This document shows, piece by piece, positions 36,768 through 40,086 of a stretch of 60,363 nucleotides of DNA. Source of the DNA: Rhodospirillaceae bacterium. Its GTDB lineage: Bacteria > Pseudomonadota > Alphaproteobacteria > Azospirillales > Azospirillaceae. The notes beneath the pieces are model-generated. The model ran no database searches. It was given only the letters and a program-made list of their open reading frames with translations, and was not told the DNA's origin. The stretch spans positions 1 to 60,363 of the forward strand of contig JAJUIU010000013.1 of assembly GCA_029267445.1 (NCBI GenBank), written 5' to 3'. The first letter of the stretch is position 1. Every line of letters starts with the position of its first letter. A program made the position numbers and the translations under genes.

Positions 36768-37520
36768 TCACGCCCCCGCCGGGCCGGGGATGATCTGCGG
36801 GCCCGCCAGCGCCAGGGCCGCCGCCGGGTCGATCCGGCCGTCATAGAGGGCGCGCCCGACGATGACGCCCTGGATGCCGGTGCCCTCTTCCCGCTTCAGC
36901 GCCTCCAGGTCCTTCAGCGCCGACACCCCGCCCGAGGCGATCACCGGCGTGGTCAGGTGGCAGGCGAGGTTGGCCGTGGCCTCCACGTTCACCCCGCCCA
37001 TGGCGCCGTCGCGGTCGATGTCGGTGTAGATGATGGCGGCGACCCCGGCATCCTCGAACTTCATGGCGAGGTCGAGGGCGCGCACGCTGGAGGTCTCCGC
37101 CCAGCCGTCCACCGCCACCATGCCGTCGCGCGCGTCGATGCCGACGCAGACCCGGCCGGGGAACGCCTTGCATGACTGCTTCACCAGCGCCGGGTCGCGA
37201 AGGGCCGCCGTGCCCAGGATCACGCGGGCGACACCCTTCTCCAGCCACGCCTCGATCGTGGCCATGTCGCGGATGCCGCCGCCGAGCTGCACCTTCATGG
37301 AGACGGAGGCCAGGATCGCCTCCACCGGGGCGGCGTTCACCGGCTTGCCGGCGAAGGCGCCGTTCAGGTCGACGATGTGCAGCCAGCCGAAGCCGGCCGC
37401 CTGGAACCGCGCCGCCTGGTCGGCGGGATCGGTGTTGAACACGGTGGCCCGGTCCATGTCGCCGCGCACGAGGCGCACGGCGTTGCCGTCCTTCAGGTCG
37501 ATGGCGGGAAACACGATCAT
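36768..37520 (-). CDS. hisA: ProFAR isomerase
   Basis: Amadori isomerisation of ProFAR to PRFAR. A 250-aa TIM barrel related to HisF, with acid/base Asp8 ([18 protein letters not shown]) and a second conserved Asp in [10 protein letters not shown]. Phosphate-binding segments are GGGIRDM and [11 protein letters not shown]. The length and motifs are complete. It sits between the GNAT gene (six-base gap) and hisF. Confidence 0.95.
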
Positions 37521-37526
37521 CGGCGG

Positions 37527-38072
37527 TCAGCGCGGTCCTTCGGCGTCGAGGTCGAGATAGTAGAAGAGGCCGGCATAGACCCGTCCATGCGCCATCGCGT
37601 AGCGGGGGTGGGTGCCCCAGCGCTTGAAGCCGAGGCTCTCGTACAGGGCGATGGCCGCCGTCTGGCTGTCGCGCACATCAAGGTTCAGGACCTTGTAGCC
37701 CTCGTCCCGGGCGCGGTCGGCCACGGCGAGCGTCAGTTTCTTCGCCAGCCCGTGGCCGCGCGCCCAGGGGGCGACGAAGCTTGTGGTCAGGGCCGCCGCG
37801 AAACTCTGGGACTCGTTGTTGCGGGTCGGGCGGATGAGCTGGGCCGAGCCGGCGATCACCCCGTCCAGCCGGCCGACGAACAGGGTGCGCTCCGGCACCA
37901 CCATGACGCCGCGCCAGTACCGCTCCATCACGTCGCGCGGCGGCGGATCGACCCAGCCGAAGCCGCCCCCGTCCACGATGGCGGCGTCGGTCGCGTCGCA
38001 CAGGTCGTGCAGGTCGCCGCGGCGGAACTCGTCCACGACCTCGACGGCCGTGACTGCCTTGAGCTCGGTCAT
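37527..38072 (-). CDS. GNAT-family acetyltransferase inside the his operon
   Basis: A 181-aa protein. It has the GNAT fold with an acetyl-CoA loop-like FVAPWARGHGLAKKLTLAVADRARDEGYKVLNLDVRDSQTAAIALYESLGFKRWGTHPRYA. This contains the RGxGL pyrophosphate-binding motif and the ALYESLGF motif. Its ATG is adjacent to the hisH stop and its stop lies six bases before hisA, so it is firmly part of the operon. The substrate is unknown. It may modify a histidine-pathway metabolite, or simply be a passenger. Confidence 0.85.
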   Translation of the reverse strand: MTELKAVTAVEVVDEFRRGDLHDLCDATDAAIVDGGGFGWVDPPPRDVMERYWRGVMVVPERTLFVGRLDGVIAGSAQLIRPTRNNESQSFAAALTTSFVAPWARGHGLAKKLTLAVADRARDEGYKVLNLDVRDSQTAAIALYESLGFKRWGTHPRYAMAHGRVYAGLFYYLDLDAEGPR

Positions 38073-38720
38073 CTACGGACGCCATTCGAGGAAGTTGCGG
38101 ATGAGGCGCAGGCCGGTGGCCTGGCTCTTCTCCGGGTGGAACTGCGTGCCGACGATGTTGTCACGCCCGACCACGGCGGGGAAGCGTCCGCCATAGTCGC
38201 ATTCGGCCAGCACCACCGACGGGTCGGCCGGCACCATCCGGTAGGAATGGACGAAATAGGCGTGGCTGCCCGCCGTCAGCCCCTCCAGCACCGGATGGAC
38301 GGGTGAGGCCGGGATCAGCTCGTTCCAGCCCATGTGGGGAATCTTCAACGCCGGGTCGGAGGGGGCGAGCGGCACCACCTCCGCGTCCAGCCAGCCGAGG
38401 CCGCCGGTGTCGCGGTGCTCCCGCCCGACGCTGGCCAGCAGCTGCATGCCGACACAGATGCCGAGGAAGGGCCGGCCATGCAGGATCACCGCCTCGTAAA
38501 GGGCTGAGACCATGCCGTGGACGGCGTCCAGGCCGGCCTTGCAGTCGGCGAAGGCGCCGACGCCCGGCAGCACGATGCGGTCGGCCGTGCGCACATTCTC
38601 AGGATCGGCTGTGACGGCGACGGTCATCGACAGCCCGGCCTCCGCCACCGCGCGCTCCAGCGCCTTGGCCGCCGAGCGCAGATTGCCCGACCCGTAATCG
38701 ATGAGGGCGACGGTGGTCAT
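38073..38720 (-). CDS. hisH: Imidazole glycerol phosphate synthase, glutaminase subunit
   Basis: A class I glutamine amidotransferase that supplies ammonia to HisF. The 215-aa length is normal. The catalytic triad is Cys89 ([11 protein letters not shown]), His195 and Glu197 (QFHPEKS). The N-terminal [13 protein letters not shown] is the family signature. Its ATG overlaps the DUF559 stop by four bases (ATGA). This is unusual, because the overlapping partner is an apparently inserted gene. Confidence 0.95.
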
Positions 38721-39385
38721 GGTCCGGTCCCCCTCCCGGCCGGGGAAGGCGGAACCACCCCCTCACCCCCCCGCATCGCGGGTCCCTCCCTCTCCCCGGG
38801 GGGGAGACGGATCGGCTGTGCCGGTTGCCGCGCTTGGAAAGGACCCGGGCCGATATCGGCGGGCCGGACTCCGTCAATCCCTCTCCCCCCCGGGGAGAGG
38901 TCAGGAGAGGGGGTATCGCCGCCGGGGCACCGCCGCAGACCCGCCTGGACCTCGTGCCAGATGGCGTCCATCACGCCTTCGAACGCGGTGAAGACATCGC
39001 CGTTCCAGAAGCGGATGACGCGGTAGCCGGCGGTATCGAGCGCGGCGGTGCGGCGGGCGTCGCGGTCACGGTCCGCGTCGTGCTGCGCGCCATCGATCTC
39101 GATCACCAGCCGGAGTCGATGACAGACGAAATCGACGGTATAGCCGAGGATGGGCTCCTGCCGACGGAACTTGGCACCGTACTTCCCGGCGCGCAGATGC
39201 GACCAGACAAGCCGCTCCGCATCGGTCATGTCCCGGCGGAGGCGTTGCGCCCGCCGCGTCTGATTTGCGCTCGGCTTGGCCTTGGCGGCGGCGCTTTTCG
39301 GACGGACCGGTGAAGGCGGAACCGCCCCCTCTCCTGACCTCTCCCCGGGGGGGAGAGGGAGGGGCTGATGTGCGGGCGGGGGCAT
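38717..39385 (-). CDS. DUF559 (Vsr-like) endonuclease-domain protein with repeat-encoded ends
   Basis: A 222-aa protein. The DUF559 domain covers about residues 44-155: [58 protein letters not shown]. Its PD-(D/E)XK-like Asp85, Glu96 and Asp98 suggest a nuclease. Residues 9-20 and 158-169 are encoded by a perfect 35-bp inverted repeat, and residues about 191-210 by a third related copy, so both tails are low-complexity Pro/Gly/Arg. GGAGGT five bases before the ATG is a strong ribosome binding site. The gene follows hisB by 12 bases and overlaps hisH. Its function is unknown, and it is probably a mobile passenger. Confidence 0.78.
38752..38813. repeat. Related CTCACCC/CTCTCCCC repeat inside the DUF559 3' end
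   Basis: CCCCCTCACCC and CCCTCTCCCCGGGGGGGAGA (split CCCTCTCCCC-GGGGGGGAGA) units resemble the flanking 35-bp inverted repeats. They encode the Pro/Gly-rich C-terminal tail of the DUF559 protein. Confidence 0.6.
38879..38913 (+). repeat. 35-bp inverted repeat, left copy
   Basis: Begins CCCTCTCCCCCCCGGGGAGA and is the exact reverse complement of 39325-39359. It lies just after the DUF559 catalytic domain. Confidence 0.9.
39325..39359 (-). repeat. 35-bp inverted repeat, right copy
   Basis: Exact reverse complement of 38879-38913. It lies within the first 20 codons of the DUF559 gene. Confidence 0.9.
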
Positions 39386-39397
39386 CGTGACCTCCGC

Positions 39398-40021
39398 TTA
39401 CAGGGAGCCGCCGAGCACGCCCTTGGTGGACGGGACGGCGTCGGACTTGCGGGGATCGATCTCGATCGCCGCCCGGAGCGCGCGGGCGAGCGCCTTGTAG
39501 CAGCTCTCCACGATGTGGTGGTTGTTCTCGCCGTACAGGTTCTCGACATGCAGGGTGGCGCCGGCCGACTGGCTGAAGGCCTGGAACCACTCGCGGAACA
39601 GCTCGGTATCCATCTCACCCAGCTTGTCGCGGGTGAACTGGACCTTCCAGATCAGGTAGGGCCGGTTCGACAGGTCGATGGCGACGCGGGTCAGCGTCTC
39701 GTCCATCGGCACATAGGCGTGGCCGTAGCGCTGGATGCCTGTGCGGGCCCCCAGCGCCTTCGCCACGGCCTCGCCCACGGCGATGCCGGTATCCTCGGTC
39801 GTATGGTGGAAATCGATGTGCAGGTCGCCCTTCGCCTCGACCTCCAGGTCGATCAGCGAATGGCGCGACAGCTGCTCCAGCATGTGGTCGAGGAAGCCGA
39901 TCCCGGTGGAGACGGCGTACTGCCCCGTCCCGTCCAGGTTCACGGCCACTTTGATCCGGGTCTCCTTGGTGGAACGCTCCACCGCGGCCCGGCGGCCCTG
40001 CTTGGCGATGCTGGTGTCCAT
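39398..40021 (-). CDS. hisB: Imidazoleglycerol-phosphate dehydratase
   Basis: Converts IGP to imidazole acetol phosphate. The 207-aa protein is the single-domain type without a fused phosphatase. The manganese-binding motifs are [14 protein letters not shown], near the middle, and [19 protein letters not shown]. The start gives an [18 protein letters not shown]-terminus after a short basic leader. It is the first his gene on this strand and is divergent from the transglycosylase gene. DUF559 follows 12 bases later. Confidence 0.96.
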
Positions 40022-40086
40022 GGCGGTTTCGTACCGCCTATGGCCGCCCCTGTCCAGTTCGCCGGGCGCCTCGTCTGGTTCACCCG

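Follow-up and report, generated by a model that had tools for sequence, protein, structure and literature searches.

A DUF559 nuclease gene framed by inverted triplex-motif repeats between hisB and hisH, and the association of this gene family with the motif across genomes

The window, a 60,363-nucleotide stretch of contig JAJUIU010000013.1 from a Rhodospirillaceae bacterium, contains a nuclease gene between two genes for histidine biosynthesis. The ORF (38717–39385, minus strand) comprises 222 aa and matches profiles of YcjD-type, Vsr-related DUF559 nucleases of the PD-(D/E)XK kind. Its upstream neighbour is hisB (39398–40024, minus strand; PF00475, 1.9e-67), its downstream neighbour hisH (38073–38720, minus strand; GATase profile match). 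As stated in the initial annotation, a ribosome binding site can be predicted after hisB: GGAGGT (39390–39395, minus strand) is located past the hisB stop codon and 4 nt ahead of the nuclease ATG. The overlap with the hisH start is also present, as the TGA of the ORF (38717–38719) and the hisH ATG (38718–38720) share the sequence ATGA. The SD-like tract GGGAGGGGG (38729–38737, minus strand) lies within repeat DNA 8 nt ahead of the hisH ATG and could serve as ribosome binding site for hisH. The nuclease reading frame is open across the repeats. Judged by the sequence at the hisB-hisH site, the unit appears to leave the operon unbroken. A GNAT acetyltransferase gene (37527–38072, minus strand) is located directly 3' of hisH in the his operon and followed by an ORF (36768–37520) that by eye resembles hisA. 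A known RNA family was considered and rejected: Rfam (E up to 1) yielded a single match, mir-1538, which is located outside the unit (39461–39511) and reaches 21.5 bits versus a gathering score of 78.

The assignment of the ORF to DUF559 holds. PF04480 matches residues 41–146 with 126 bits (cut-off 20.6; E 6.5e-37), and the domain (38948–39265, minus strand) contains E57, Q76, D85, E96, D98, H102, D109, R112 and R125. The YcjD-type equivalog model NF007294 yields 83.6 bits (1.1e-23), which is below its cut-off of 218. Membership in the Vsr mismatch endonucleases was rejected, as the match to TIGR00632 (27.3 bits, 3.4e-6) misses the curated cut-off of 97.85. The closest solved relative is PDB 3hrl, termed 'Endonuclease-Like Protein' (1.8e-20). 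At eleven positions of the domain, the residue is retained in at least 157 of 158 rows (158 of 159 loci; one with less than 85 residues was dropped), and all eleven residues are present in the window protein, whose own row is included. Because these positions are near-invariant, the domain is considered to be under strong selection. YcjD has been assigned to the PD-(D/E)XK superfamily (PMC1189080), and from this assignment we infer that the conserved residues form the active site. A defence gene was rejected as identity, since the PADLOC comparison yielded only a weak hit that covers part of the Hhe model at one end. DUF559-like stretches were also seen as weak matches inside ORFs of about 1100–2160 aa, perhaps Hhe-type defence proteins.

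The nuclease domain is framed by a perfect inverted repeat with 100% complementary arms of 36 bp at 38878–38913 (plus strand) and 39325–39360 (minus strand). The longest inverted repeat in 200 dinucleotide shuffles of 38300–39800 was 18 bp, which excludes a chance origin. Perfection and inversion had been recognized before, with a length of 35 bp that has to be corrected. The description of the domain as framed exactly was slightly generous: Framing is evident, with gaps of 34 and 59 bp between domain and arms. In the first copy, the hairpin is outside and the third-strand head GGAGAGGGGG points towards the gene; the second copy is its exact inverted copy, and its head also points towards the gene. 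A third hairpin with a poor third strand is located at 38791–38807 (minus strand). Therefore, the C-terminal Pro/Gly tail of the protein is encoded by two repeat copies and the N-terminal one by a single copy, which bears out the view that the repeats encode these tails. Partial or decayed material without assigned strand (38729–38782) comprises the imperfect hairpin CCCCCTCCCGGCCGGGGAAGG and a stretch in common with 39307–39349; the direct repeat D3 linking both regions is 77%. This material may be part of a gene-less pair in tandem, i.e., a second unit. As single-stranded DNA, the 24-nt hairpin folds better than shuffles (z −2.55), and the whole 36-nt repeat folds no better than shuffles (z 0.23).

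The GC-rich intrastrand triplex motif (TM; earlier PIT; TMECO) was described by Holder et al. (2015; PMC4666352, accessible in part). In its layout, a purine third strand in mirror image comes after a pyrimidine-rich hairpin. The succession CTCTCCCC-loop-GGGGAGAG and then a mirror-image purine stretch has the same layout, with third-strand matches of 7/7, 7/7 and, in the third copy, 5/7. By its layout, the repeat flanking the DUF559 gene in the window is the known TM/PIT. In the accessible text on E. coli K-12, 23 copies including five inverted pairs are reported, the pairs being of inverted A/B type in E. coli, as well as triplex formation in vitro (PMC4666352). The palindrome CTCTCCCC(N0-10)GGGGAGAG occurs 15 times in the genome to which the window belongs, its reversed-pattern control 0 times. 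This genome contains five gene-less inverted pairs, 87–89 bp apart, in which the hairpins are on the outer and the heads on the inner side, the layout also seen at the nuclease gene. Such pairs are also found in the genome G032, which has 284 palindromes in total: Among the 48 listed, 36 make 18 adjacent pairs, and 18 of 18 are of the same type and inverted. Of the 14 pairs of one type among the listed palindromes, 8 are spaced by 94 bp; all 4 pairs of the other type are spaced by 117–118 bp. The idea of one nuclease per repeat population in G032 was rejected, as both nuclease loci fit the same population and leave the other listed one without a match.

Motif variants were observed as well. 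Beside the DUF559 gene of locus L078 (genome G104, no match to the GC-rich palindrome pattern), several copies of an AT-richer version (CCCTCTTTAGCAAAGAGGGGTTAGGGGAGATTT) are located. At L090 (genome G289), the DUF559 gene is enclosed by an inverted repeat of about 100 bp that is almost perfect and contains TCTCCCCC hairpins. In L097 and L106, a small palindrome (GTCCGGCAGGAC or GCCCGGCAGGGC) takes the place of the third strand after related hairpins. CGTC-tagged palindromes, according to the accessible text of PMC3733652 predominant in Alphaproteobacteria and without dedicated transposase, are another repeat class without known partner.

An empty hisB-hisH junction was sought in relatives and found. 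In 16 of 17 relatives from the same family, both genes are 0–80 bp apart without DUF559 between them, compared to a gap of 681 bp in the genome of the window; in the 17th relative (G004), hisB was not found in the searched flank. Among 12 more distant genomes of the class, six contain both genes together, 131–864 bp apart and without DUF559; of the other six, hisB is missing from the flank in three and hisH is unmatched in three. Because the junction is empty in 16 of 17 same-family relatives, the DUF559 unit is, as far as genome comparison tells, an insertion.

Do TMs accompany other DUF559 genes? Palindromes of the TM kind are located near all three DUF559 genes in the genome of the window. 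A hairpin scan was written on 62 loci (discovery) and then run on 57 loci of other genomes fetched afterwards (validation). Only the hairpin definition predates retrieval of the validation loci; the 300-bp limit was set afterwards, jointly for all sets. A TM-type hairpin was found within 300 bp of the gene at 147 of 159 loci (59/62 in discovery, 54/57 in validation, 34/40 among further paralogue loci). This means, the same repeat class accompanies DUF559 genes across the phylum sample. The initial annotation had named two observations that would refute its view, a gene present at this place in all relatives without repeats and a repeat absent from other DUF559 genes; neither was made. In the validation set, hairpin density falls from 3.6 per kb in the 300 bp next to the gene to 0.35 at 300–500 bp and 0.035–0.09 beyond 500 bp of the same loci. 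Control loci yielded 0 of 30 for Vsr, among them one (L264) that is misplaced because its contig is short, and 2 of 29 for hisH. Vsr is the fairer control, since 13 of its 30 loci are in genomes with at least 10 palindromes, and hisH the weaker one, since it is located in operons and many control genomes are palindrome-poor. Using a motif-free scan, an inverted repeat with a score of at least 16 was found around the gene at 31 of 62 DUF559 versus 0 of 29 hisH loci. Among twelve named records, hairpins within 500 bp of DUF559 were found in nine: Phenylobacterium, Klebsiella, Neisseria, two Deinococcus, Synechocystis, Sinorhizobium, Azospirillum and Photobacterium. The strict scan over 500 bp found none in Catellatospora, Picosynechococcus 7002 and E. 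coli H240.

At 74 of the 159 loci, hairpins are present on both sides of the nuclease gene. The two ends resemble each other: Their similarity is 0.449 within a locus versus 0.121 between genomes, and the two ends of a locus beat all same-genome paralogues in 11 of 15 cases with two ties. Heads point towards the gene on both sides at 47 of these 74 loci; the other 27, one Deinococcus case among them, have different layouts (16, 7 and 4). Taken together, the pairing of DUF559 genes with triplex-motif repeats is strongly supported.

This pairing is also visible at the genome level. Among 398 genomes of the phylum, which were searched for the palindrome CTCTCCC N1-9 GGGAGAG, DUF559 is present in 104. 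At least three palindromes were found in 88 of 104 DUF559-positive and 29 of 294 negative genomes (Fisher 1.3e-45). When labels were shuffled within families (17 families with both kinds, 226 genomes), the observed 77 of 92 was reached in 0 of 20000 trials. Within the family of the window, 44 of 49 positive versus 6 of 33 negative genomes have at least 10 copies. GC content was controlled for by the reversed pattern and the family strata only. Exceptions exist on both sides: Among positive genomes, 16 of 104 fall short of three palindromes of the searched form; among negative ones, 13 of 294 have at least 10. A relaxed DUF559 search (E up to 1) covered 19 palindrome-bearing genomes scored negative and left out G058, which was scored negative because its only match is partial. 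G450, G183 and G392 turned out to contain broken or fragmentary DUF559 copies, G476 has a copy that is divergent and intact, and ten others gave weak matches, often within much longer frames. G044, G354, G232, G146 and G111 lack any DUF559 match at E up to 1, and the latter four belong to the 13 negatives with at least 10 palindromes. Among the relaxed-search finds, only the broken G183 copy has hairpins around it; none were found at the loci of the divergent G476 copy and the broken G450 and G392 copies. DUF559 copy number varies: One to three genes are usual (82 of the 104 positive genomes), and G029, G315, G351 and G421 contain seven or eight each.

Two other enzymes were considered as TM partners. 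Y1_Tnp runs in the opposite direction, with at least three palindromes in 31 of 155 positive versus 86 of 243 negative genomes, so that Y1/RAYT was rejected for want of a positive association. Vsr exhibits a raw excess of TM-rich genomes (44/95 versus 73/303) that is not significant among DUF559-negative genomes (7/55 versus 22/239), and was rejected as well.

In E. coli, ycjD is a DUF559 gene, and ycjD DNA is present in 3365 of 5426 genomes. In K-12, a full TM is located 168 bp past the ycjD stop codon, and decayed repeat-like DNA is found at the 3' end of the gene. The sapF-ycjD-fabI region was tried as a clean empty site and found unusable, because the eefRABCD operon occupies this place in both ycjD-less strains examined; eefRABCD at the sapF-fabI position is also described in the accessible text of PMC12817139. 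One E. coli control genome has no DUF559 match and may belong to a lineage in which eefRABCD replaces ycjD. Gene-less pairs differ between strains at hrpB-mrcB: A TM pair is carried by K-12 and an O157:H7 strain, F9792 has a different pair whose order is opposite, in EH2252 the form is reduced, and no pair is present in two strains examined. Of 60 entries listed, at least 20 have the shorter hrpB-mrcB site, these two strains among them. By eye, no target-site duplication was recognized at hrpB-mrcB. In two Deinococcus plasmids, DUF559 genes that are 88% identical over 100 residues reside at different junctions of the hpa operon, the compared operon proteins of which are 80–89% identical. Besides a move of the DUF559 gene, a move of the neighbouring gene could explain this difference.

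How often does the nuclease gene itself move? Of 425 cross-genome DUF559 pairs with at least 70% identity, 422 are syntenic; therefore, the gene moves rarely. The self-contained unit that spreads, envisaged in the initial annotation, gains no support from this result. Flanking-repeat similarity tracks protein similarity beyond within-genome shuffles (0/1000); below 70% protein identity, the same test is not significant (131/500). In the strict version, which used non-syntenic pairs and shuffled repeats among paralogues within genomes, rho was 0.136 versus a shuffled mean of 0.137, with 267 of 500 shuffles at least as high, and 460 of 500 when one multi-copy member was used. All pair tests left out loci without hairpins. 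The significant version is carried by close, syntenic homologues. As the test failed below 70% identity and the signal is gone without syntenic pairs, we do not claim that each paralogue has its own repeat, for which the matched ends of a locus would speak.

On this basis, we consider it probable that DUF559 is a cognate nuclease that acts on TM pairs and mobilizes them, by analogy with RAYTs and REPINs and with an unrelated enzyme. Two inverted TM copies, pyrimidine-rich hairpins outside and mirror-image purine third strands inside, would constitute a mini-element of about 85–140 bp, and the unit in the window would be the gene-bearing form of such a REPIN-like repeat family. The DUF559 gene inside or beside a TM pair would encode the enzyme acting on the motif. 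This Vsr-related nuclease would most likely recognize the hairpin or triplex in single-stranded or extruded DNA and nick or cut there. At the break, repair or replication might then generate copies of TM pairs at new sites, mostly between genes. As for the nuclease gene, it would as a rule be inherited in place and rarely move with its flanking TMs. One such rare move may have brought it to the hisB-hisH junction; there, hisH would have stayed translatable owing to the open frame and the SD-like repeat DNA. The more specific proposal that a Vsr-related nuclease drives the spread without any transposase, by cutting the hairpin or triplex so that host repair copies the pair elsewhere, is more tentative and somewhat short of probable; integration is not explained by the nuclease alone.

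Four other explanations have to be weighed. DUF559 might be a host repair nuclease for hairpin- or triplex-stalled DNA, which TM-rich genomes need, with TMs spreading by other means. This would fit the synteny of close homologues, the enrichment of DUF559 in TM-rich genomes, the weak Vsr match of the window protein and the Caulobacter DUF559 protein VsrA, on which the SOS response depends when the methyltransferase ScmA is missing (PMC12907096). However, a repair role predicts neither a gene beside or between matched TM ends nor the hisB-hisH insertion, and true Vsr genes have no adjoining hairpin at any of the 30 loci. We therefore regard it as unlikely.

Alternatively, TM pairs might be mobilized by another transposase, with the DUF559 gene as cargo caught between two copies. 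The inverted pairs are indeed MITE-like, and, to our knowledge, no transfer chemistry is known for DUF559. However, the transposase family compared, Y1_Tnp, is not positively associated, varied cargo would be expected, yet TMs flank one and the same family in groups as distant as Alphaproteobacteria and Deinococcus, and the domain residues are nearly invariant; cargo is thus an improbable role. Even less can be said for hairpins that are cis-acting control elements of DUF559 genes, i.e., terminators or RNA stabilizers, and were dispersed secondarily. Their clustering within 300 bp of the gene would be accounted for, but neither the up to 509 copies elsewhere in a genome nor the heads that point to the gene from both sides at most two-sided loci. 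In addition, the accessible text of Holder et al., citing earlier work, attributes no promoter or terminator activity to the E. coli motifs (PMC4666352), and we judge this explanation to be very improbable. Chance, or a tendency of small lone genes and of GC-rich repeats alike to occupy intergenic space, might be invoked since E. coli copies are described as always intergenic (PMC4666352, accessible in part), but is scarcely credible in view of the hairpin-free Vsr loci, also small nuclease genes and in 13 cases from palindrome-rich genomes, and of a genome association that persists within families.

If the preferred reading of DUF559 as the nuclease that acts on TM pairs is correct, several consequences follow. 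The little-characterized DUF559 family, found in about a quarter of the sampled genomes, would acquire a role, and a RAYT-like partnership of enzyme and repeat would have arisen with an unrelated nuclease. If, in addition, no transposase is involved, TMs would form a class of selfish repeat that does without transposases, with ycjD and the TM copies as its representatives in E. coli K-12. By its association with TMs, DUF559 is suggested as partner enzyme for a widespread repeat that previously had none. With a partner enzyme, the origin of TMs becomes directly testable, and ycjD of E. coli K-12 could serve as model.

How does this proposed system compare to known ones? Homing endonucleases spread through a nuclease and host repair. 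The logic proposed here is the same; TMs differ in having no single fixed target and no intron or intein and in forming many short non-coding derivatives. The enzyme belongs to the same sequence family as YcjD and Caulobacter VsrA, with 3hrl as solved relative. In the accessible texts, this family is regarded as a predicted nuclease or Vsr-like repair enzyme, without mention of a link to repeats (PMC12907096, PMC12817139, PMC1189080). This link is added here; no publication reporting it was found in the open-licence literature, a coverage outside which bioRxiv falls. The repeat is the same as TM/PIT, with hairpin, mirror third strand and inverted pairs. Whereas Holder et al., in the accessible text, report no mobility function near the E. 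coli copies (PMC4666352), a nuclease gene is tied to the motif here, ycjD included.

The closest likeness is that to RAYTs and REPINs, and the parallel to REP-associated transposases drawn in the initial annotation is apt in view of inverted pairs and matched ends. In both systems, palindromes are arranged in inverted pairs, here in the genome of the window and in G032, and the enzyme gene is flanked by repeats, in our loci mostly within 300 bp and in nearly half of them on both sides. RAYTs are distinct single copies with mostly vertical inheritance (PMC3116915, accessible in part), and the DUF559 enzyme likewise occurs as distinct single copies that mostly pass on vertically. By contrast, the DUF559 repeat is a triplex motif in which no GTAG tag was seen by eye, Y1_Tnp is not positively associated with it, and the genome of the window has no Y1_Tnp match at E up to 1e-10. 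The RAYT enzyme is a Y1/HUH transposase, whereas DUF559 is a Vsr-related PD-(D/E)XK protein. Because its enzyme comes from another superfamily, the DUF559-TM pairing is not a member of the RAYT-REPIN system but resembles it in architecture.
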